DNA from: Okeania sp. SIO2C9
Lineage (GTDB): Bacteria; Cyanobacteriota; Cyanobacteriia; Cyanobacteriales; Microcoleaceae
Length of the DNA stretch: 64,000 nt
Direction of reading: 5' to 3'
NCBI RefSeq assembly: GCF_010672455.1
Contig: NZ_JAAHGO010000033.1
Span: forward strand, 1-64,000
The notes under the pieces were generated by a model, which saw only the letters and a list, made by a program, of their open reading frames with translations, made no database searches and was not told the DNA's origin. Made by a program: the position numbers and the translations under genes. Position 1 is the stretch's first letter. Each line of letters begins with the position of its first letter. Shown here piece by piece: positions 15,458-62,161 of the stretch.

Positions 15458-17833
15458 ATGTCTGACTTAGAATCAAATTTATCTGCTCTAGCAGCCAAGG
15501 TTTCACAATTGGAAAAACAACAAATTACTCTCAAAAAATATGTTGTTAAACTGAAACATATTTTAGACGAGCAAATAGAAAATTTCAATCATCGACCAGA
15601 AGCACAATACATCGAAAATTTACAGGAAAATTTTGTTGCTTTAACTCTACGTTTAGATGAATTATTAGCTTGAAATAATCCCATAAAATCGACTACGGAA
15701 ACTCAAGATAAATCTCCGGACAATAGGCAAAAAACTGAAGAAGATCAAAATAAATTAGTGTTTGACTGTACTGATAGTCGTGGTGTATTAATCGAAGGAT
15801 TAGAAACAGTTCAAGAACGATTAATTATTGTTTTTCCTTGGTTAAATTGTAATAGTATTGATGAACATTTACTGAAGAAATTAAAAGATTGTTTAAACCG
15901 CAATTGTCAGATAGATATTGGTTGGGGATATTTAGATGATCGCTCGAATATTGGCAAAGGTTGGAAATATAATGCTTTGGGATATTTACAAGAATTGGAA
16001 GAAAGTTATCCTGGTGTATTTCGCTTGAAGTTGTTAGGAACTCACGAAAATTTTCTGGTGTGTGATGAGAAGTTTGCTTTTGTGGGGAGTCATAATTTTT
16101 TAGCTTCTGGCAATCAAAGTTTGGAAAGAGAAGTGGGAGTTTTGACGAGTTATTCAGAAATTATTCAGGGATTAATTAACCGTTTTGATAATGCTGAAGT
16201 TTTGGAGGAAGCATAAATTAATCGTAGATTTGCAGCAAGTGTGAAAAGTTTGGATGAGGTGGAATATTTGCCTGGAGTTATTGATGAAAGTGAAATGGAG
16301 TTTAGAGATTTTTCGATGGTGGTAGATGAGGATGAGGATGAGGAAGAAGGAGTGGAATATTTGCCTGGAGTTGTTGATGAGAATGAAATGGAGTTTAGAG
16401 ATTTTTCGATGATGGTAGATGAGGATGAGGAGGAGGAAAAAGAGGAAGAAGAAAGTCTAGAACCTGTGGTTAGTGCTGAGGCATTTTTGCGTAGATATAG
16501 TGAAGGAGAAAGAGATTTTACTGGGATTAATTTGTCTGGTGTTGATTTGAGTGGAAAGTCTTTTAATAATTCAAAATTAAATTTGAGTAATGCTAATTTT
16601 AATGGTGTAAATTTGAGTGGTGCAGATTTAAGAGATTTTAACTTTACAGGAGCAACACTTAAAAGTGCTAACCTCTCTGAGATTAAGTTGTATTCAGCCA
16701 ATTTAAGTCACACTAAGTTTATTAATACGAATTTGAATAAAGCGCAAATCAATTCTGTGAAACTAGAAAAGGCAAAGTTCAGAAATGTGAATCTCAGTGA
16801 AGCTAATTTAGAGTCTGCAAATTTTACTGAAGCTAACTTAAGGGGAGTTAATTTAAGTAATTCTCAACTTTCAAATAATGTAAACTTCAGTAATGCAAAT
16901 CTCACAAAAGCGAATTTGAGTAGATTAAATTTGAGAAATGCGAATTTTACTAATGCAGATTTGAGTCAAGCTAATTTGAGTAAAGTGAATTTATTAAATG
17001 CAAAATTTGAAAGAGCAAACCTGCAAATGGTTAAAATGAATCAAGCACTTTGTAGCGAAGCAACTGTTTTTCCAAAAAGTTTTAATTACACTAAATTAGG
17101 TGTTTATTTGATTGCTCCTGGTGCTTCATTATCAGAAGTAAATCTCGCTGGTAGTGACTTGAGTAATGTACACTTAAGAGGAGCAAACTTAGAAGGATAA
17201 AATTTGAATTCAACTAATCTAAATAACTCCGATTTAAGTGATGCAAATTTAAGTAATGCTCAGTTAATGAAAGCAAATTTAGTTAATACAAAATTTGTTG
17301 AGGCAAATCTTAAGAAAGCTAATTTGAGTGAAGCATCTATAAAAGGTGCAGAACTAAAATTAGCAGACTTTAATCAAACAAACTTTGCTCATGCTAGCTT
17401 ACATGATGTTAATTTAACAGCAGCAGACCTTAGTCAAACAAATTTTGCTCATGCGAGTTTACATAACGTTAATTTAACAGCAGCAAATCTTAGTCAAGCT
17501 GACCTGAAAAATGTGCGTAATTTTAGTGCAATTAACCTTAATGGTGCTAACTTAACTAGGGAAAATTTAGTAGGTTTATATTTAAATTACAATCAAAAAC
17601 TTAGAGGTGTTAATTTAAGCAAGGCAAAACTTTGTGGCACAGATTTAAGTAAAAGTAACTTGAGCAACGCCAACTTAACTTTAGCAGACTTGCGTGGGGC
17701 AAATTTAAGTAGTATTAACCTAGAAAATGCAAACCTAAAAGAAGCAAATATAACTGGTACAAACTTTGGTGAAGGCAATAATAAAGCTAACTTGAAAGGT
17801 GCAACAATGCCAGACGGTTCAACTCACGAATAA
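15458..17833 (+). pseudogene. PLD-like / pentapeptide-repeat gene interrupted by three in-frame stops
   Basis: One reading frame of 792 codons runs from ATG 15458 to TAA 17831. It is cut only by TGA (15671-15673), TAA (16214-16216) and TAA (17198-17200), with no frameshift. Domains in order: a coiled coil (1-71); a PLD-like domain with a degenerate HKD motif (HENFLVCD...GSHN, the Lys replaced by Asn); an acidic region with a 93-bp (31-codon) tandem duplication starting at 16259 and 16352 (EYLPGV, MEFRDFSM); then about 40 pentapeptide repeats (A[N/D]Lxx) forming a right-handed beta-helix. The third stop falls inside the pentapeptide helix, so the parts were clearly one protein. It is most simply a pseudogene made by nonsense mutations. 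Translation as separate fragments or readthrough remains possible. Confidence 0.85.
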
Positions 17834-50493: not shown

Positions 50494-51002
50494 CTGTGAA
50501 AAAGAATTATAGTATCAAGTACTAATCCTTAATCTTAGCTATTTATATTTAGCTCAATTATCAACCTATAGATATTGGCGAGATATTGGCGATCGCTTCA
50601 CTAATCAATCAATTGAACCTCTCTGAAAAATTCATGTGTAAATCTCAATCAATTTCCCGAATTATTCCCCTAATCCTAATTTCAATTCTCACCAAAAATT
50701 TAGATAATTGAATCTGAAGTTTTTCAGCAAAACGCTATTTATATTTAGCTCAATTATCAATTTATAGCTGTGAGCGATCGCTTCACTAATCAACAAATGT
50801 AATATCTCTCAAAATATCATGGTTAAATCAAAATCAATTTCCCGAATTATCGCCCTAATCCTAATTTCAATTCTCACCAAAAATTTAGATAATTGAATCT
50901 GAAGTTTTTCAGCAAAACGCTATTTATATTTAGCTCAATTATCAATTTATAGCTGTGAGCGATCGCTCCATACTCAACAAATTTAATCTCTCTCAAAATA
51001 TC
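50494..51002 (+). repeat. Three tandem copies (184-185 bp) of the next gene's 5' region
   Basis: AATTTCCCGAATTAT occurs at 50651, 50836 and 51020. Each unit includes TATTTAGCTCAATTATCAA, GAGCGATCGCT, an ATG/GTG region and the first codons of the signal peptide (KSISRIIALILIS). In the first two units the leader frame ends after about 25 codons at a TGA in GATAATTGAATC. Only the third unit leads into the full gene. Confidence 0.88.
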
Positions 51003-52274
51003 ATGATTAAATCAAAATCAATTTCCCGAATTATCGCCCTAATACTAATTTCCATTTTCACAACAATTACATTAGTATTAGCCTCCAATCAAATTAGTAT
51101 AACTGCACAAAAATCAGAAATTCGTGGCGTTTGGATAACTAATATTGATAGTGATGTTTTATTTTCTAACTCAGCCACAACAGTAGCAATAAATCGTTTA
51201 GCAAAACTAAACTTCAACACACTATATCCCACGGTTTGGCAAGGCGGTTATACTCTTTATCCTAGCCAAGTAGCACAACAAATATTTGGTAAATCATTAG
51301 ACCCGACTCCTAGTTTACAAGGACGAGACATTTTACGAGAAATTATTACCGAAGGGCATGAAAAAGGCTTAACAATTATTCCTTGGTTTGAATTTGGTTT
51401 TATGGCACCAGCAGATTCAGAATTAGCAAAATTACATCCTAATTGGTTAACTAAACGTCGCGATGGAACTACTATTAAAATGGAAGGAGAAGATGCACGA
51501 GTTTGGCTGAATCCTTTTCATCCAGAAGTACAACAATTTATCTTAGATTTAATCCTTGAAATTGTTACTAAATACGATATAGATGGCATTCAATTTGATG
51601 ACCATTTTGCCTTACCTGCGGAATTTGGTTATGACGATTTTACAGTTAAATTATATGAAAAAGAACTTCCTGGATTATCACCTTCTGATGATTATCAAGA
51701 AACTTTTTGGGTCCGTTGGCGAGCGGATAAAATTAATAATTTTATGGAGCGAGTTTCTGAAGAAATAAAATCGATAAAACCAAACTGTATTATTTCTGTA
51801 TCTCCAAATCCTTTCCATTTTGCTTTACCTGCTTATTTGCAAGACTGGTTTACTTGGGAAAGAGAAAAATGGATTGATGAAATTGTTTTACAAGTTTATC
51901 GTTCAGACATTAAACGTTTTACTAAAGAATTAGAACGAACAGAAGTCGAATTAGCTAAAAATCATATTCCTTTTGCTATTGGAATTTTGACTGGTTTGAA
52001 AAATAATTCTACTCCTATAAGGACAATTGAAGAACAAGTAGAAGTAGTGCGGAAGAGAAATTTTGCGGGAGTATCGTTCTTTTTCTATGAAAGTTTATGG
52101 AAGTGGGGAAAAGAGTCAGAAAATCTCCGCAGTCAAACTTTGGATAAAATTTTTGATCGACCTATTTCAAGGCCGAAAAATTCTAGTTATAGTAGTACAT
52201 TTTTGCTGAGTAGAATAAGTTTTAGTTGTTTGCGCAGCATTCCGGTAGGAAAAGGGAATAGAGGTATTTTCTAA
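51003..52274 (+). CDS. Secreted glycoside-hydrolase-like (GHL10/DUF187) protein
   Basis: Start chosen at ATG 51003 because a signal peptide begins there (MIKSKSISRIIALILIS); a GTG at 50955 would place 16 polar residues before it. The product is 423 residues, exported. The family's TIM barrel starts at EIRGVWITNIDSDVLF. Further landmarks are LTIIPWFEFGFM, DARVWLNPFHPEVQQF, DGIQFDDHFALP (candidate catalytic Asp pair), ISVSPNPFHF and AGVSFFFYESLW. Substrate unknown, perhaps cell wall or sheath polymer. The last 15 codons (SCLRSIPVGKG) are a short interspersed module read as protein, so the natural C-terminus was replaced or extended. Confidence 0.88.
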   Translation: MIKSKSISRIIALILISIFTTITLVLASNQISITAQKSEIRGVWITNIDSDVLFSNSATTVAINRLAKLNFNTLYPTVWQGGYTLYPSQVAQQIFGKSLDPTPSLQGRDILREIITEGHEKGLTIIPWFEFGFMAPADSELAKLHPNWLTKRRDGTTIKMEGEDARVWLNPFHPEVQQFILDLILEIVTKYDIDGIQFDDHFALPAEFGYDDFTVKLYEKELPGLSPSDDYQETFWVRWRADKINNFMERVSEEIKSIKPNCIISVSPNPFHFALPAYLQDWFTWEREKWIDEIVLQVYRSDIKRFTKELERTEVELAKNHIPFAIGILTGLKNNSTPIRTIEEQVEVVRKRNFAGVSFFFYESLWKWGKESENLRSQTLDKIFDRPISRPKNSSYSSTFLLSRISFSCLRSIPVGKGNRGIF

Positions 52275-52504: not shown

Positions 52505-55325
52505 TTCCTGGAGCAAGAAGTCAAACAGGCAATTTTTTTCCTCTTAAGGAAATAGTAGAAGGGAAAAGCTAGAAATTTTTCCGATTTTGGTAAGGGGAAA
52601 GACTAGAAGTGGCAAATTTTTTCCTCTCTAGGAAATAGTAGAAGGGAAAAGCTAGAAAATTTTCCCTCTCAAGAAAATAGTAGAAGGGAAAAGCTAGAAA
52701 TTTTTCCGACTTTGGCAAGGGGAAAAACTATAGGTAGTATATTTTTTCCTCTCAGGTAAACGCTAGAGTCAAAAAGGTCGAAATTTTCTCTAATACCATT
52801 TCTCTGTAACAATGCGCTTAATAATTCTTACCAAAACCTGAATTTTACTAATAGCTTTTATCTTTTATTAAGCGCAACTTCATGGAGAAATGGTATAACT
52901 TTTTCCTGGAGAAAGAAGTCAAACAGGCAAACTTTTTTCTCTCAGGTAAATAGTAGAAGAGAAAAACTAGAAAATTTTCCGACTTTGGCGAGGGAAAAGA
53001 ACTAGAAGTGCTAAATTTTTCCTGATCAGATAAATAGTAGAAGGGAAAAGCTAGAAAATTTTCCGACTTTGACAAGGAGAAGAAACTAGAAGTGCTAAAT
53101 TTTTCCTGATCAGATAAATAGTAGAAGGGAAAAGCTAGAAAATTTTCCGACTTTGGCGAGGGAAAAGAACTAGAAGTGCTAAATTTTTCCTGATCAGATA
53201 AATAGTAGAAGGGAAAAGCTAGAAAATTTTCCGACTTTGGCGAGGGAAAAGAACTAGAAGTGCTAAATTTTTCCTGATCAGATAAATAGTAGAAGGGAAA
53301 AGCTAGAAAATTTTCCGACTTTGGCGAGGGAAAAGAACTAGAAGTGCTAAATTTTTCCTGATCAGATAAATAGTAGAAGGGAAAAGCTAGAAATTTTTCC
53401 GACTTTGGCGAAGAGAGAGACTAGAAGTAGTAAATTTTTCCCTCTTCAGTAAATACTAGAGGGGAAAAGATAGAAATTTTTCCCTCTCAGATAAACACTA
53501 GAGTCGAAAAAGCCTAAATTTTCTCTAAATTTTTCCTGGAGAAAGAAGTCAAACAGGCAATTTTTTTTCTCTTAAGTAAATAGTAGAGGGGAAAAGCTAG
53601 AAAATTTTCCGACTTTGGCGAGGGAAAAGAACTAGAAGTGCTAAATTTTTCCTGATCAGATAAATAGTAGAAGGGAAAAGCTAGAAATTTTTCCGACTTT
53701 GACAAGGAGAAGAAACTAGAAGTGCTAAATTTTTCCTGATCAGATAAATAGTAGAAGGGAAAAGCTAGAAATTTTTCCGACTTTGGCGAGGGAAAAGAAC
53801 TAGAAGTGCTAAATTTTTCCTGATCAGATAAATAGTAGAACAGAAAAACTAGAAAATTTTCCGACTTTGGCGAGGGAAAAGAACTAGAAGTGCTAAATTT
53901 TTCCTGATCAGATAAATAGTAGAACAGAAAAACTAGAAATTTTTCCGACTTTGGCGAGGGAAAAGAACTAGAAGTGCTAAATTTTTCCTGATCAGATAAA
54001 TAGTAGAACAGAAAAACTAGAAAATTTTCCGACTTTGGCAAGGAGAAGAAACTAGAAGTAGTAAATTTTTCCCTCTTCAGTAAATACTAGAGGGGAAAAG
54101 ATAGAAATTTTTCCCTCTCAGATAAACACTAGAGTCGAAAAAGCCTAAATTTTCTCTAAATTTTTCCTGGAGAAAGAAGTCAAACAGGCAATTTTTTTTC
54201 TCTTAAGTAAATAGTAGAGGGGAAAAACTAGAAATTTTTCCGACTTTGGCGAGGGAAAAGAACTAGAAGTGCTAAATTTTTCCTGATCAGATAAATAGTA
54301 GAAGGGAAAAGATAGAAATTTTTCCGACTTTGACAAGGAGAAGAAACTAGAAGTGCTAAATTTTTCCTGATCAGATAAATAGTAGAAGGGAAAAGCTAGA
54401 AATTTTTCCGACTTTGGCGAAGAGAAAGACTAGAAGTAGTAAATTTTTCCCTCTTCAGTAAATACTAGAGGGGAAAAGATAGAAATTTTTCCCTCTCAGA
54501 TAAACACTAGAGTCGAAAAAGCCTAAATTTTCTCTAAATTTTTCCTGGAGAAAGAAGTCAAACAGGCAATTTTTTTTCTCTTAAGTAAATAGTAGAGGGG
54601 AAAAACTAGAAAATTTTCCGACTTTGGTAAAGGGAAAAACTAGAAGTGCTAAATTTTTTCCTCTTCAGTAAATACTAGAGGGGAAAAGCTAGAAAATTTT
54701 CCGACTTTGGCAAGGAGAAGAAACTAGAAGTGCTAAATTTTTCCTGATCAGATAAATAGTAGAAGGGAAAAGATAGAAAATTTTCCGACTTTGGCAAGGA
54801 GAAGAAACTAGAAGTGGTAAATTTTTCCTGATCAGATAAATAGTAGAAGGGAAAAGATAGAAAATTTTCTGACTTTTCCTAGAAAAGGAAGTCAAACAGG
54901 CAATTTTTTCCCTCTCCAGGAAATAGTAGAAGGGAAAAGCTAGAAATTTTTCCGACTTTGGCAAGGAGAAGAAACTAGAAGTGGTAAATTTTTCCTGATC
55001 AGATAAATAGTAGAAGGGAAAAGATAGAAAATTTTCTGACTTTTCCTAGAAAAGGAAGTCAAACAGGCAATTTTTTCCCTCTCCAGGAAATAGTAGAAGG
55101 GAAAAGCTAGAAAATCTTCCGACTTTGGTAAGGGGAAAAACTAGAAGTGGTAAATTTTTTCCTCTCCAGGAAATAGTAGAAGAGAAAAACTAGAAATTTT
55201 TCTGACTTTGGTAAGGGGAAAGAGTAGAAGTGGCAAATTTTTTCCTCTCCAGGAAATAGTAGAAGAGAAAAACTAGAAATTTTTCCAACTTTGGTAAGGG
55301 GAAAGAGTAGAAGTGGCAAATTTTT
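52505..55325. repeat. 2.8 kb satellite array with 84-bp period and higher-order structure
   Basis: Landmark ACTAGAAGTG recurs at 53001, 53085, 53169, 53253 and 53337, exactly 84 bp apart. The unit is built of GGGAAAAGCTAGAAAATTTT, CCGACTTTGGCGAGGG and TTTTTCCTGATCAGATAAA. A longer variant block containing GAGTCGAAAAAGCCTAAA occurs at about 53500, 54130 and 54508, spaced 631 and 378 bp, so blocks of several units were copied together. Because 84 is a multiple of 3, the minus strand has stretches open for up to 175 codons (KSENFLVFLFYYLSDQEKF). They break repeatedly and have no start signals, so I treat it as noncoding. Confidence 0.92.
52794..52895. mobile_element. 102-bp MITE inserted in the satellite
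   Basis: The ends TACCATTTCTC and GAGAAATGGTA are inverted repeats. Neighbouring array copies read CTCTAAATTTTTCC where this one reads CTCTAA-[element]-TAACTTTTTCC, so the insertion duplicated TAA. Interior GCGCTTAATAA/TTATTAAGCGC forms a second inverted pair. Confidence 0.82.
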
Positions 55326-55348
55326 CATTGTGACAAAATAACTAATAC

Positions 55349-56168: not shown

Positions 56169-59100
56169 ATGCACCGAATAGCAGCTACTCCTGGTGGTTG
56201 GAACCCTCAAGCAGAAGGGGTAATTTTTATCGAACAAACTCCCGCACCAATAATATTTTTAACAGCAGCAGATACGGATATTCAAACATTAGCAGCAGCA
56301 GTTAATAAATTACCTTCAGATTTTCCACCAGTGAGAGTTGCTAATTTACTTCACCTGCAACAACAATTAACTATTGATACTTATGCTGATGATATTTTAT
56401 CCAAAGCTGAAGTAATTATTCTCCGACTTTTGGGTGGGCGTTCCTATTGGTCTTATGGATTAGAAGTTTTGCAAGAAGCGCTCGAAAAAAATGATGCAAA
56501 ACTAATAGTAATTCCTGGAGATGACCGCCCAGATCCAGATTTAATGAATCATTCTAATATTTCAATTTCAGCAGTTAATCAACTGTGGCGATATTTGACT
56601 GAAGCGGGAGTAGATAATTTTGTGAATGGTCTACAGTTTGTGGCTAATATTTGTCTGGATAAAAATTACCATCTTCCTCCACCTATTTCAGTGCCACGAG
56701 TAGGAATTTATCCTTGGCAAAAACAACAACAAAATACAAAGGCAAAAATCGGAATATTATTCTATCGCGCTCATTATCTCTCTGGAAATGTTGCTCCAAT
56801 AGATGCTCTTTGCCAAGCTTTAACAACAAGAAATTTAGAACCTGTTCCAGTATTTGTTTCTTCTCCTAGAGATTTAGAAATACAAGAGGAAATATTGCAG
56901 TATTTTCAACCTGAAGATTCTCAGGCAATTCAATTATTGTTAAATACAACAAGTTTTGCTGTCTCTGTTGTGAATAATCAAGATTCAGAATTAGAAAATT
57001 TGTCTTTTCCTCCCTTGTTAAGAAATGGGAAAAAATTAGATATCCCAGTTTTACAAGTAATTTTTAGTGGTGGGAATTTTGAGCAGTGGGAAAGTCAATT
57101 TCAAGGTCTTTCACCACGGGATGTGGCGATGAATGTGGCATTGCCAGAAGTAGATGGAAATATTATTAGTCGGGCGGTTTCTTTTAAGGCAGTTCAAACT
57201 TGGAATTCAGATTTAGAAACAGATGTTGTGAGTTATCTTCCTGTTGAAAATAGAATTGCATTTGTGACAGAATTAGCTGCTAATTTTATTAAGTTGCGAC
57301 AAACTCCAGTATCTCAACGTCGCATCGCATTAATATTAGCAAATTATCCTAACCGTGATGGTCGTCTTGCAAATGGAGTGGGATTAGATACTCCTGCTAG
57401 TTGTGTAGAAATTCTCCAAGCTTTACAACAAGCTGGTTATAATTTGGAAAATATTCCTGAAACAGGCGATGAGTTAATTAAATGTCTGACTTCTGGGGTA
57501 ACAAATGATTTAGAAAGTCGCGAATTACGTTCTGTTTTACAGTCTCTATCTTTGGCAGAATTTGAAACATATTTTACTAGTTTGCCAGAAGTTGTACGAG
57601 AAAAAATTATTCAGAGATGGGGAAAGAGGAATGACATAGATTTTGGTATGGCACACACGGATTTTGCCACGGATGTACGGATTAATTCCACTATAATTCC
57701 GCCATCTTTTTCCCAAGATATTTCTAGTAATTTTTCAGAATTTAAGAAAGATAATTACACAGATTTTGCCACGGATGTACGGATTAATTCCACTATAATT
57801 CCGCCATCTTTTTCCCAAGATGTTTCTAGTAATTTTTCAGAATTTAAGAAAGATAGTGAGGTAAAAGAAATTGATAATTTTCCAATTCCGGGGATTAAGT
57901 TAGGGAATATTTTTGTAGGTATTCAACCTTCGCGGGGTTACGATATTGACCCTAGTTTAAATTATCATGCTCCAGATTTAGAACCGACTCCTAATTATTT
58001 AGCTTTCTATTATTGGTTGAGAGAAAAATTTAAAATAGATGCAATTATTCATGTGGGAAAACATGGAAACTTAGAATGGTTGCCAGGCAAAAGTGTCGGT
58101 TTATCTCAAGAATGTTTTCCAGAAATAACTCTCGGTGCTTTGCCACATTTTTATCCATTTATTGTTAACGACCCAGGAGAAGGCTCCCAAGCTAAACGGA
58201 GGTCTCAAGCTGTAATTATTGACCATTTAACACCACCTATGACTCGTGCTGAAATTTATGGAGCTTTACAACAGTTAGAAACTTTAATTGATGAATATTA
58301 TGAGGCACAAAATTTAGACCCATCTCGGTTATCCGTGATTCGAGAGCGGATAATTAATCTCATAGAAAAAGAAGGTTTAGATAAAGATTTATCATTTTTA
58401 GGAAAAGACTCAGAAAACACAAATTTTGCCACGGATGTACGGATTAATTCTACTAATTTTTCAGAATTTAAAGGTGTAACTTCCGACTCCTTCGGTGCAG
58501 AAAAAGACTCAGACTTCCTCTGGTCTTCTGAGCAAAATCAGGATAAATTTGTCACAGAAATAGAAAGTTTGTCTCCCGACTCCTTCGGTGCAAAAAAAGA
58601 CTCAGACTTCCTCTCGCTCCCGGAGCAAAATCAGGATAAATTTGTCATAGAAATAGAAGGTGTAACTTCCGACTCCTTCGGTGCAGAAAAAGACTCAGAC
58701 TTCCTCTGGTCTTCTGAGCAAAATCAGGATAAATTTGTCATAGAAATAGAAGGTGTAACTTTCGAGTTCTCTGATTCCGAAAAAGACTCAGACTTCCTCT
58801 GGTCTTCTGAGCAAAATCAGGATAAATTTGCCACAGAAATAGAAAGTTTGTCTCCCGACTCCTTCGGTGCAAAAAAAGACTCAGACTTCCTCTCGCTCCC
58901 GGAGCAAAATCAGGATAAATTTGTCACAGAAATAGAAAGTTTGTCTCCCGACTCCTTCGGTGCAAAAAAAGACTCAGACTTCCTCTCGCCTTCTGAGCAA
59001 AATCAGGATAAATTTGTCATAGAAATAGAAAGTTTGTCTCCCGACTCCTTCGGTGCAAAAAAAGACTCAGACTTCCTCTCGCCTTCTGAGCAAAATCAGG

Positions 59101-61772
59101 ATAAATTTGTCATAGAAATAGAAGGTGTCACTTCCGACTCCTTCGGTGCAAAAAAAGACTCAGACTTCCTCTGGTCTTCTGAGAAAAATAGGGATAAATT
59201 TGTCGCAGAAATAGAAGGTGTCACTTTCGAGTTCTCTGATTCCGAAAAAGACTCAGACTTCCTCTCGCTCCCGGAGCAAAATCAGGATAAATTTGTCACA
59301 GAAATAGAAAGTTTGTCTCCCGACTCCTTCGGTGCAAAAAAAGACTCAGAATTCCTCTCGCCTTCTGAGCAAAATCAGGATAAATTTGTCACAGAAATAG
59401 AAGGTGTCACTTCCAACTTCTCCAGTTCCGAAAAAGACTCAGACTTCCTCTCGCTCCCGGAGCAAAATCAGGATAAATTTGTCACAGAAATAGAAGGTGT
59501 CACTTTCGAGTTCTCTGATTCCGAAAAAGACTCAGACTTCCTCTCGCTCCCGGAGCAAAATCAGGATAAATTTGTCACAGAAATAGAAAGTTTGTCTCCC
59601 GACTTCTCCAGTTCCGAAAAAGACTTAGACTTCCTATCGCCTTCTGAGCAAAATCAGGATAAATTTGTCATAGAAATAGAAAGTTTGTCTTCCGACTTCT
59701 CCAGTTCCGAAAAAGACTTAGACTTCCTATCGCCTTCTGAGCAAAATCAGGATAAATTTGTCATAGAAATAGAAAGTTTGTCTCCCGACTCCTCCAGTTC
59801 TGAAAAAGACTTAGACTTCCTATCGCCTTCTGAGCAAAATCAGGATAAATTTGTCATAGAAATAGAAAGTTTGTCTCCCGACTCCTCCAGTTCTGAAAAA
59901 GACTTAGACTTCCTCTCGCCTTCTGAAAAAAATAGAGAGAAAAAAGATTTATTTACTCCCTCGCTCCACTTCAACAGAGGAGAGAAATTTGAAAATGATG
60001 AAAATGCTAGATTTGCCAAATTAATTACTAATGTAGATGGTTATCTCTGCGAATTAAAAGAAGCACAAATTCGCGATGGTTTACATATCTTTGGGCAATG
60101 TCCTCAAGGTCAACAATTACGAGATTTAATCATAGCGATCGCTCGTCATCCTAGTACTACTCGTTTGGGTTTAACTCGTGCTTTAGCTGAAGATTTAGGT
60201 TTAGATTTTGACCCTCTCACTGACGATTTTTCTACAATTATTAATCAGAACTTATTAATAGATGGAAAATCTTGTCGTACCTTGGGTAATGCTGTTGAAG
60301 TCCTCGAAGAAAAAGCAGCTAATTTAGTCGAAAATTTAATTAACCAAAATCTGATTAACTCTCCCTTCCCACAGACAAACAAAGAATTAGAATGGATTCG
60401 CCAAAATCTTCTACCTTCTCTGCAAAAAACTAATCAAGAAATTATCAACTTATTAATAGGATTAGATGGCAAATATATCCCTAGTGGTTCCTCTGGCGCT
60501 CCGACAAGAGGTAGACCAGACGTTTTACCCACAGGTCGGAATTTTTACTCTGTAGATATTCGCGCTATTCCTACAGAAACTGCTTGGAGAGTCGGACAAT
60601 TAGCAGCAGAAAATTTAATTGAAAGATACACTCAAGAAAATGGTGAATATCCTCAAACTTTAGGGTTATCAGTATGGGGAACTTCTACCATGCGAACTGG
60701 TGGAGATGATATTGCTGAAGCACTTGCTTTATTAGGTGTAAAACCTGTTTGGGATAGACCTTCTCGAAGAGTTATCGACTTTGAAATTTTGCCAATTTCA
60801 ATATTAGGAAGACCCCGTGTAGATGTAACTTTAAGAATTTCTGGTTTCTTCAGAGATGCTTTTCCTAATATTATCGATTTATTCGACCAAGCTGTTATTG
60901 CTGTGGCTAATTTAGATGAGTCTCCAACAGAAAATCCTTTAGCTGCTCAAGTTAAAAAAGAAGTCAAATATTGGCAAGAATTAGGATTAACTGAAATTCA
61001 GGCAAAAGCACGTTCTCAATATAGAATATTCGGTTCTAAACCAGGAGCTTATGGTGCAGGTTTGCAAGGTTTAATCGAATCTCAAAATTGGCAAGATGAC
61101 CAAGATTTAGCTAGAGCTTATATTAATTGGAGTAGTTATGCTTATACAGGAATTAATAATAGTTATAACCAGGAAGCTAGGGCAATAAATTCTCCCGAAG
61201 CATTTTCCCAACGTCTCCAACAAATGCAGATAGTTCTGCATAATCAAGACAACAGAGAACATGACTTATTAGACTCCGATGATTATTATCAATTCCAAGG
61301 TGGAATGACAGTAGCAATTCGCGCTTTAACAGGCAAAAATCCTGATACTTATTTTGGAGATAATTCTATGCCAGAAAATCCCAAAGTTCGACAATTAAAA
61401 GAACAAATTACTAGAGTTTATCGTTCCAGAGTTGTTAATCCTAAATGGATAGCTGGAGTAATGCGTCATGGTTATAAAGGAGCTTTTGAAATGGCAGCCA
61501 CAATAGATTATTTATTTGCCTATGATGCTACAGCAAAATGTGTAGAAGATTTTATGTATCAAGGAGTAGCTGAAGCTTATATTTTTGATGAGAATGTACA
61601 ATCATTTATTCACGGAAAAAATCCTTGGGCATTGCGCGATATGGCAGAAAGATTATTAGAAGCAAATCAACGAGGTTTATGGCAGTCAGCTAATCAAAAA
61701 ACTTTGGAAAAATTGAGAGCGATCGCTCTAGAAGCAGAAGGGATAATTGAGAATTTAGAATTCAGAATTTAG
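56169..61772 (+). CDS. cobN: CobN-type cobaltochelatase large subunit with a 16-unit internal repeat
   Basis: CobN is the large subunit of the ATP-dependent chelatase that puts cobalt into hydrogenobyrinate diamide for cobalamin; the family also includes ChlH. The start MHRIAATPGGWNPQ and the segments LLGGRSYWSYGLE, HVGKHGNLEWLPGKS, GSKPGAYGAGL and RVVNPKWIAGVMRHGYKGA are typical. At 1867 residues it is about 570 longer than usual. Two in-frame expansions explain this: a doubled segment DFATDVRINST...NFSEFKKD at about residues 497-562, and 16 repeats of 31 residues (about 769-1259). The catalytic parts on both sides look intact, so it may still work with a large acidic loop. Cobalt versus magnesium specificity is inferred. 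Confidence 0.9.
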   Translation: MHRIAATPGGWNPQAEGVIFIEQTPAPIIFLTAADTDIQTLAAAVNKLPSDFPPVRVANLLHLQQQLTIDTYADDILSKAEVIILRLLGGRSYWSYGLEVLQEALEKNDAKLIVIPGDDRPDPDLMNHSNISISAVNQLWRYLTEAGVDNFVNGLQFVANICLDKNYHLPPPISVPRVGIYPWQKQQQNTKAKIGILFYRAHYLSGNVAPIDALCQALTTRNLEPVPVFVSSPRDLEIQEEILQYFQPEDSQAIQLLLNTTSFAVSVVNNQDSELENLSFPPLLRNGKKLDIPVLQVIFSGGNFEQWESQFQGLSPRDVAMNVALPEVDGNIISRAVSFKAVQTWNSDLETDVVSYLPVENRIAFVTELAANFIKLRQTPVSQRRIALILANYPNRDGRLANGVGLDTPASCVEILQALQQAGYNLENIPETGDELIKCLTSGVTNDLESRELRSVLQSLSLAEFETYFTSLPEVVREKIIQRWGKRNDIDFGMAHTDFATDVRINSTIIPPSFSQDISSNFSEFKKDNYTDFATDVRINSTIIPPSFSQDVSSNFSEFKKDSEVKEIDNFPIPGIKLGNIFVGIQPSRGYDIDPSLNYHAPDLEPTPNYLAFYYWLREKFKIDAIIHVGKHGNLEWLPGKSVGLSQECFPEITLGALPHFYPFIVNDPGEGSQAKRRSQAVIIDHLTPPMTRAEIYGALQQLETLIDEYYEAQNLDPSRLSVIRERIINLIEKEGLDKDLSFLGKDSENTNFATDVRINSTNFSEFKGVTSDSFGAEKDSDFLWSSEQNQDKFVTEIESLSPDSFGAKKDSDFLSLPEQNQDKFVIEIEGVTSDSFGAEKDSDFLWSSEQNQDKFVIEIEGVTFEFSDSEKDSDFLWSSEQNQDKFATEIESLSPDSFGAKKDSDFLSLPEQNQDKFVTEIESLSPDSFGAKKDSDFLSPSEQNQDKFVIEIESLSPDSFGAKKDSDFLSPSEQNQDKFVIEIEGVTSDSFGAKKDSDFLWSSEKNRDKFVAEIEGVTFEFSDSEKDSDFLSLPEQNQDKFVTEIESLSPDSFGAKKDSEFLSPSEQNQDKFVTEIEGVTSNFSSSEKDSDFLSLPEQNQDKFVTEIEGVTFEFSDSEKDSDFLSLPEQNQDKFVTEIESLSPDFSSSEKDLDFLSPSEQNQDKFVIEIESLSSDFSSSEKDLDFLSPSEQNQDKFVIEIESLSPDSSSSEKDLDFLSPSEQNQDKFVIEIESLSPDSSSSEKDLDFLSPSEKNREKKDLFTPSLHFNRGEKFENDENARFAKLITNVDGYLCELKEAQIRDGLHIFGQCPQGQQLRDLIIAIARHPSTTRLGLTRALAEDLGLDFDPLTDDFSTIINQNLLIDGKSCRTLGNAVEVLEEKAANLVENLINQNLINSPFPQTNKELEWIRQNLLPSLQKTNQEIINLLIGLDGKYIPSGSSGAPTRGRPDVLPTGRNFYSVDIRAIPTETAWRVGQLAAENLIERYTQENGEYPQTLGLSVWGTSTMRTGGDDIAEALALLGVKPVWDRPSRRVIDFEILPISILGRPRVDVTLRISGFFRDAFPNIIDLFDQAVIAVANLDESPTENPLAAQVKKEVKYWQELGLTEIQAKARSQYRIFGSKPGAYGAGLQGLIESQNWQDDQDLARAYINWSSYAYTGINNSYNQEARAINSPEAFSQRLQQMQIVLHNQDNREHDLLDSDDYYQFQGGMTVAIRALTGKNPDTYFGDNSMPENPKVRQLKEQITRVYRSRVVNPKWIAGVMRHGYKGAFEMAATIDYLFAYDATAKCVEDFMYQGVAEAYIFDENVQSFIHGKNPWALRDMAERLLEANQRGLWQSANQKTLEKLRAIALEAEGIIENLEFRI
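58474..59945 (+). repeat. Sixteen 93-bp tandem repeats inside cobN
   Basis: The landmark AGCAAAATCAGGATAAATTT recurs every 93 bp from 58532 through 59834, with variants at 59184 and 59928 (AAAAATAGGG, AAAAATAGAG). All steps measured are 93. The unit encodes 31 residues (EQNQDKFVTEIESL + SPDSFGAKKDSDFLS). Variants (GVTSDSFGAE, GVTFEFSDSE, SLSPDSSSSE) are arranged in local groups, which shows that several units were duplicated together. No indel or stop occurs. Confidence 0.95.
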
Positions 61773-62161
61773 AAGTAATTTGTACCCAGAAATAGTTAAA
61801 AATTTTATTAGAAAGTCAAGTCAGATTTTGTCATTGTTACCCAACCTTTTGATTCAAAAAATCCTTGGGCATTACGGGATATGGCAGAAAGATTATTAGA
61901 AGTAAATCAACGAAGTTTATGCCAGTCAGCTAATCAAAAAATGTTGGAAAAAATTCAGGCGATCGCTCTAGAAGCAGAAGGAATAATTGAGAATTTAGAA
62001 TTCAGAATTTAGAATTCAGAATTGAAAATTGAGAATTGAGAATTTTGAAGTAATTTGTACCCATAAATAATCGCTCAGTTATGCAAAAGGAATAACTTTA
62101 AAAGGGAATTTAAAGTGTTATTTTTAAATTATCACTTAGTATCTTTAAACTTGGAAATACT
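61773..62161 (+). pseudogene. Spacer with duplicated cobN 3'-end fragment
   Basis: About 61857-62012 repeats cobN 61616-61772 with a few changes (AATCCTTGGGCATTACGGGA, GCGATCGCTCTAGAAGCAG). It is an orphan fragment without a start. GAATTCAGAATTTAGAATT direct repeats follow (61996-62045). They mark the tail of both copies and may have driven the duplication. Confidence 0.85.

Follow-up and report, generated by a model that had tools for sequence, protein, structure and literature searches.

A tandem array of 31-codon repeats, variable in length between species, within the cobaltochelatase gene cobN of Okeania sp. SIO2C9

Repeat-rich inserts occur in housekeeping proteins of Plasmodium, where they are possibly functionless, and the heptads of the C-terminal domain (CTD) of RNA polymerase II are conserved. 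The available parts of the respective reports describe asparagine and low-complexity repeats in Plasmodium proteins (PMC3749963), the CTD as a genetically unstable but functional repeat array in an essential gene (PMC7341143), and the palindromic elements of Rickettsia as dispersed DNA captured in frame inside protein genes (PMC10969869). Within the class I chelatase family, HmuS contains a low-complexity disordered insertion (120 residues in the solved protein, with a mean of 82 and a minimum of 22); as far as the available text of that report goes, this Met-rich insertion is present in all 680 HmuS proteins and other class I chelatases lack it (PMC12583661).

Here we describe a long tandem array inside cobN of Okeania sp. 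SIO2C9, located in a window of 64,000 nucleotides (the whole stretch of DNA analysed, positions 1 to 64,000 of contig NZ_JAAHGO010000033.1). Among the titles and abstract openings searched, a scope outside which most subscription papers fall, we found no report of repeats in CobN. We consider it probable that a permissive surface linker of CobN absorbs the repeats, such that selection would hold the frame and its openness, and hardly the residues.

An intact cobN with an in-frame array

The cobN gene (56169..61772, plus strand) is uninterrupted from ATG through to the stop codon in the list of open reading frames (ORFs) and encodes a predicted cobaltochelatase large subunit of 1867 amino acids, with an estimated mass of about 207 kDa. 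The product is assigned to the CobN family, with predicted cobalt chelatase activity: it scores 1656.9 bits against the equivalog model TIGR02257 (cut-off 822.05) and 1398.1 bits against Pfam PF02514, and carries the chelatase motif GKHGNLEWLPGK, which is invariant across a 37-row alignment. A second intact cobN, which according to the preliminary description would make this copy dispensable, was not found in a search of the draft genome (10.9 Mb, 317 contigs). Two other chelatase large subunits encoded in the same genome match CobN piecewise, at 27-45% identity, and look ChlH-type by reading. Within the named collection searched, the closest CobN belongs to a Trichodesmium metagenome-assembled genome (89% identity over 176 residues). 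Just downstream of cobN, positions 61851-62009 hold a partial copy of its 3' end (53 residues, 85% identical); such 3'-end fragments are also seen in relatives (five in G002, two in G001 and one in G004).

In codon register, the array occupies 58473..59945 of the plus strand, that is, 491 codons comprising 15 full 93-bp (31-codon) units and about 0.8 of a 16th. Tandem Repeats Finder (TRF) places it at 58483-59933, with 15.6 copies, 88% matches and 0% indels, as the top-scoring row of the window. The array noted in the preliminary description is real, although the count of sixteen repeats was slightly generous, and its statement that the array contains neither indel nor stop holds: no unit changes length, and the coding frame alone is stop-free. 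Across the array, the remaining forward frames are broken by 29 and 33 stops and those of the reverse strand by 14, 17 and 19; because these five frames are so rich in stops, a single frameshift in the array would soon end CobN. The copies lie head to tail within the ORF, as in intragenic tandem repeats, and only one pair among the 15 full units is identical.

The array carries a net charge of -79 over its 491 residues and is composed of 18.9% Ser, 12.4% Asp and 12.4% Glu; Met, His, Cys and Tyr are absent from all 491. When the array alone was searched against Pfam, seven weak matches were obtained, none with a single stretch passing on its own and none to an intein family. We regard these matches (Gluconate_2-dh3, DUF4058 and five others, two of which exceed the cut-off by summing) as chance, and likewise a PDB match with an E-value of 0.16. 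In a predicted structure of a 1200-residue fragment (mean pLDDT 53, residues 58-127 under 50, repeats modelled without alignment depth), the array has pLDDT values of 26-35 and almost no secondary structure, which weakly supports predicted disorder. In a model of eight units computed without an alignment, a weak strand appears in most units (pLDDT about 55), and this counts against mere tolerance of the array.

Site C, the other loops and the source of their DNA

The array lies within site C, a linker that in its entire expanded form spans 540 residues (58389..60008, plus strand), as delimited by outgroup alignments, sequence mapping to PDB and a predicted structure of modest quality. By sequence mapping, site C corresponds to junction 671-676 of the solved CobN 9uk9, and in the structure model of modest quality it is flanked by two predicted helices. 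The lengths of site C and of two further loops, sites A and B, were measured from alignments; the outgroup CobNs were taken as the 80 best matches among at least 590 candidates, and 79 of these loci were aligned. The site C linker is 3-76 residues long, with a median of 9, in 77 of the 79 outgroup CobNs measured, and 8-13 residues long in 19 of 21 loci (L139-L159) from family members other than the two genera with repeats; in the remaining two it has 74 and 76 residues, without the 31-residue unit. Judging from these alignments, site C has about nine residues in most CobNs compared, and in two genera it holds species-variable 31-codon repeats or a half-unit chimaera.

A search of 60 family genomes with a four-unit query (E-value up to 0.001) detected the unit in 10 genomes, namely, four of the five in the same genus as the Okeania genome, six of the seven in a related genus and none of the other 48; the matches listed are only in CobN and only at site C. 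In the own genus, cobN is a single open frame in all five species, and site C measures 540, 120, 463, 153 and 330 residues. In G004, the species of this genus in which the unit was not detected, a 34-residue chimaeric repeat that joins the unit's second half to the dispersed element described below occupies site C. The seventh genome of the related genus (G058), which is 81% complete, yielded neither unit nor cobN match. The insert is kept in 11 of the 12 species, G058 having given no data, and its lasting presence in 11 species exceeds what pure tolerance requires, another point against the tolerance reading. A tree built from 8 cobN core sequences, with G007 as the root, has the own species branching first and the other genus nested inside the own one, so that the two genera are related, yet not shown by this gene to be sisters. 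By eye, the gene upstream of cobN in G059 (L190) resembles the window ORF 50955-52274, and local gene order appears conserved between both genera.

Copy number varies from about 2 to 16 between species, the only level at which one genome per species allows variation to be assessed, and CobN lengths range from 1363 to 1867 residues. The own species gives 17 profile matches (15 full, 2 partial) and others give 14, 4, 3, 9, 2 and 3; G004 gives eight partial matches, and the three assemblies with breaks give no fewer than 4, 15 and 15. Unit spacings other than 31 residues are seen in relatives, always by whole codons. The frame breaks in G055, G056 and G060 fall on assembly N's, where neither a broken nor an intact gene is shown. 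The alignment of relatives proposed in the preliminary description reveals a clean insertion site and an array length that varies between species. Its strict frame constraint is borne out by the single stop-free frame and the whole-codon length changes; frame-broken relatives, which would speak against it, are not found among the 11 species, with G055, G056 and G060 uninformative at their N's.

Two other loops of CobN are expanded. Site B (57621..57875, plus strand, around residue 485) is 85 residues long, compared to 4-43 in 78 of the 79 outgroups measured; within the own genus, site B reaches 85-117 residues in four species and 78 in the remaining one. In the own species it contains a 102-bp direct duplication (57655..57855, plus strand), with a dispersed element in each copy. 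Site A (around residue 267) has 55-62 residues in G002, G003 and G004 versus 7-28 in the outgroups, and 23 in the own species.

In cobN, the dispersed element, which reads ATDVRINS, lies just 5' of the array (58417..58453, plus strand) and again in both halves of the site B duplication. All five genomes of the genus contain it, with 15, 16, 21, 36 and 66 matches, cobN copies included. None of the 10 copies outside cobN in the own genome lies inside an ORF of at least 80 amino acids when ATG starts only are considered; three of them precede the first ATG of a longer open frame. Neither of the two ATDVRINS stretches searched contains an inverted repeat of 8 bases or more, the palindrome typical of the Rickettsia elements. 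Site A of G002, G003 and G004 (L114, L115 and L116) carries heptamer-type repeats in frame, reading EEGRRKK, and the heptamer GAAGAAG is perfect in G004; three such heptamers give 274 forward and 287 reverse overlapping matches in the own genome. The loops of CobN have captured dispersed repeats in frame, ATDVRINS at sites B and C and heptamers at site A of three relatives.

The 31-codon unit itself was found nowhere else in the own genome, cobN being its sole place. In G054 and G055, the first unit adjoins the linker directly (LSFL, one residue, KDSDFL), and likewise, by offset, in G059; the linker itself may therefore be the seed of the unit. Upstream of cobN, a 2.8-kb array of 42/84-bp units (52535-55326) is mostly non-coding and contains indels, unlike the in-gene array. 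Origin of the unit from this upstream array was considered and rejected: the reverse-strand score of 19 versus 13.3 +/- 2.5 for shuffled sequences is too weak, being reached by 8 of 200 shuffles (7, 2 and 5 of 200 for three other units).

A further TRF survey of tandem repeats covered the window and 20 stretches from five contigs that earlier matches had named, 464 kb in total or 4.3% of the genome. This resulted in 138 rows with a period of at least 20, some of which overlap and describe the same array. The period is divisible by 3 in 37 of 37 rows inside ORFs of at least 200 amino acids versus 50 of 101 outside; the latter fraction is itself above one third, a point against the permissive-linker reading. 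Among the rows located in ORFs, that of cobN is the longest in this survey. Six other array-bearing ORFs that were read appear to encode HEAT, TPR, WD40-type, calcium-binding-type, OmpA-type and Glu/Pro-rich proteins, none of them a biosynthetic enzyme. One of the ChlH-type paralogues, itself an enzyme (C24, L203:9911-13966), contains a 1.9-copy 93-bp repeat (L203:12514-12693) and Lys/Ser-rich and Ser/His-rich inserts that, by eye, lie close to where sites A and B are found in CobN. Within the window, a further 93-bp in-frame duplication is located at 16259-16442, in the acidic N-terminus of an apparent pentapeptide-repeat protein.

Evolution of the units and of the CobN core

For the analysis of unit evolution, we used 60 full-length, indel-free units out of 94 profile matches; G001, G004 and G054 supply no usable unit, so that 8 species are represented in these tests. 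Third codon positions carry 0.59-0.66 of the differences in the CobN core, where dN/dS lies at 0.14-0.21 for the 16 of 28 species pairs on which these values are based, in agreement with the earlier proposal that CobN is still under selection. In the array, the third-position share is 0.28 in the own species, 0.26 in the own genus, 0.38 in the related genus and 0.34 between genera; within the seven species with at least three units it ranges from 0.22 to 0.43, and the highest value, that of G057 and G060, counts against free drift. The variable columns of the own array number 13, 10 and 8 by codon position (p 0.54), and the changes among species consensuses 22, 19 and 23 (p 0.82). All three codon positions of the array change about equally often, and the remaining CobN is under strong purifying selection. 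Pairwise dN/dS of units spans 0.40-1.06; all 7 comparisons made within species and 27 of the 28 made between species fall below 1, a point against free drift. On the unit tree, 236 amino-acid-changing and 100 silent changes correspond to an omega of 0.65-0.85, depending on the assumed transition bias.

The units recombine within the own array: 120 of 231 column pairs show four-gamete conflict, with 11 of 87 at distances up to 15 bp, 22 of 31 at 16-30 bp, 60 of 69 at 31-60 bp and 27 of 44 at 61-93 bp. Units group by species (12 label changes, against a minimum of 7 and a shuffled mean of 37.8); they are homogenised within species, and length differences are whole codons only. The preliminary description held that unit variants come in groups and that expansion went by multi-unit duplication. 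The grouping is weak in unit-order permutation (p 0.11 for neighbours and 0.085 at lag 3), and multi-unit duplication as the main route is not supported, given a non-significant order test and a four-gamete test that shows recombination among units.

In a set of hydrophobic consensus codons, F5, L6, F16, I20 and V23, which was picked after viewing the conservation table, omega is about 0.27 versus 0.97 elsewhere (permutation p 0.003 to 0.006, with event counts inflated by recombination); with F27 added, the values are 0.35 versus 0.98 (p 0.006 to 0.013). If alleles rather than events are counted at the hydrophobic codons, p becomes 0.08-0.17 over all units, 0.003-0.03 for the own genus and 0.22-0.35 for the related genus; summing the within-species alleles yields p 0.003. 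These observations are suggestive only of constraint on periodic hydrophobic residues, and they count against free drift. A functional role for the acidic loop is so far unsupported, its residues changing near-neutrally save for this suggestive conservation.

Explanations of the array and comparison with known systems

A permissive linker within a genome prone to repeats would be the simplest account. Repeat-prone DNA at site C would then expand through slippage and unequal recombination. Changes that shift the frame or create a stop would be removed because the C-terminal catalytic half is encoded downstream, whereas in-frame changes would persist because the loop projects from the surface and is probably disordered, leaving folding and catalysis undisturbed. 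The cell would then make a CobN with an acidic loop of roughly 490 residues, tolerated rather than needed.

As the main alternative, the array could be a selected module, in which periodic hydrophobic stickers on an acidic disordered spacer recruit a partner, such as ChlI/ChlD, or cluster CobN. Cyanobacteria lack cobS and cobT, and the use of chlI/chlD is suggested in the available part of a published account (PMC9227772); furthermore, the site and the 31-residue period are common to two genera, and the hydrophobic codons vary less. However, the wide range of copy number (about 2 to 16), the replacement of the unit by a chimaera in one species, the omega of about 0.97 in the other 26 codons, the lack of significance of the allele-count test over all units and the short site (8-13 residues) in 19 of the 21 family loci outside both genera make this explanation rather unlikely. 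We give still less credence to a multivalent scaffold, with a conserved sticker (F-L, F, I, V) in each unit on a drifting acidic spacer, the copy number of which would tune recruitment of the AAA+ motor and thereby balance B12 against chlorophyll synthesis; in cyanobacteria, this motor is thought to be common to Mg-chelatase and Co-chelatase.

It is also quite improbable that the array is absent from the working protein, through protein or RNA splicing, a protease cut or a CobN of two halves: although the array sits between two conserved parts of CobN, it has no intein family among its weak Pfam matches, contains no Met, and keeps a frame that would be needless if it were removed at the RNA level. 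A pseudogene or assembly product is barely credible, for although arrays of this kind disrupt draft assemblies (that of G055 stops within the array, and G056 and G060 have N runs there), such that the exact own copy number may be off, cobN is single with a core dN/dS of 0.14-0.21, the full units include only one identical pair, and the site C insert recurs in separate assemblies of 11 species.

Under the permissive-linker reading, a core biosynthetic enzyme bears a repeat loop about one third the size of the remaining protein, and this loop stays open yet drifts across two genera of Trichodesmium-related cyanobacteria. The array separates, in a bacterium, what selection sees (the frame and the absence of stops) from residues that are largely ignored, and the loops of cobN present dispersed repeats turning into coding sequence. 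The species examined are natural length variants of CobN, with which one can test how large an insert an enzyme under selection is able to bear, and great length alone does not mark a CobN of this group as misannotated.

Tandem repeats within genes are a known type of sequence, and a disordered insertion is known in the CobN relative HmuS, at another place and with another composition (PMC12583661). As described in the available part of that report, the HmuS insertion resembles the CobN array in being long, low-complexity, disordered and variable in length, in a homologue of CobN. However, it is Met-rich and is not described there as a tandem repeat, whereas the CobN array is tandem and contains no Met; it is located at HmuS 780-898, whereas HmuS 644 is the counterpart of the residue preceding site C. 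By composition and position, the CobN array is not an insertion of the HmuS type. The ATDVRINS copies in cobN are, like the Rickettsia palindromic elements as far as these are described in the part available, dispersed DNA in frame within a metabolic gene, but they contain no inverted repeat, and none of the other 10 own copies lies in an ATG-started ORF of at least 80 amino acids; the 31-codon unit, unlike those elements, is not dispersed. The Plasmodium inserts share with the CobN array a repeat-rich sequence in a housekeeping protein, the CobN case being a 31-codon unit in one linker of a bacterial enzyme. The CTD of RNA polymerase II, on the partial account available, shares with cobN an unstable array within a gene, but the residues of the CobN array mostly drift, in contrast to the conserved heptads.
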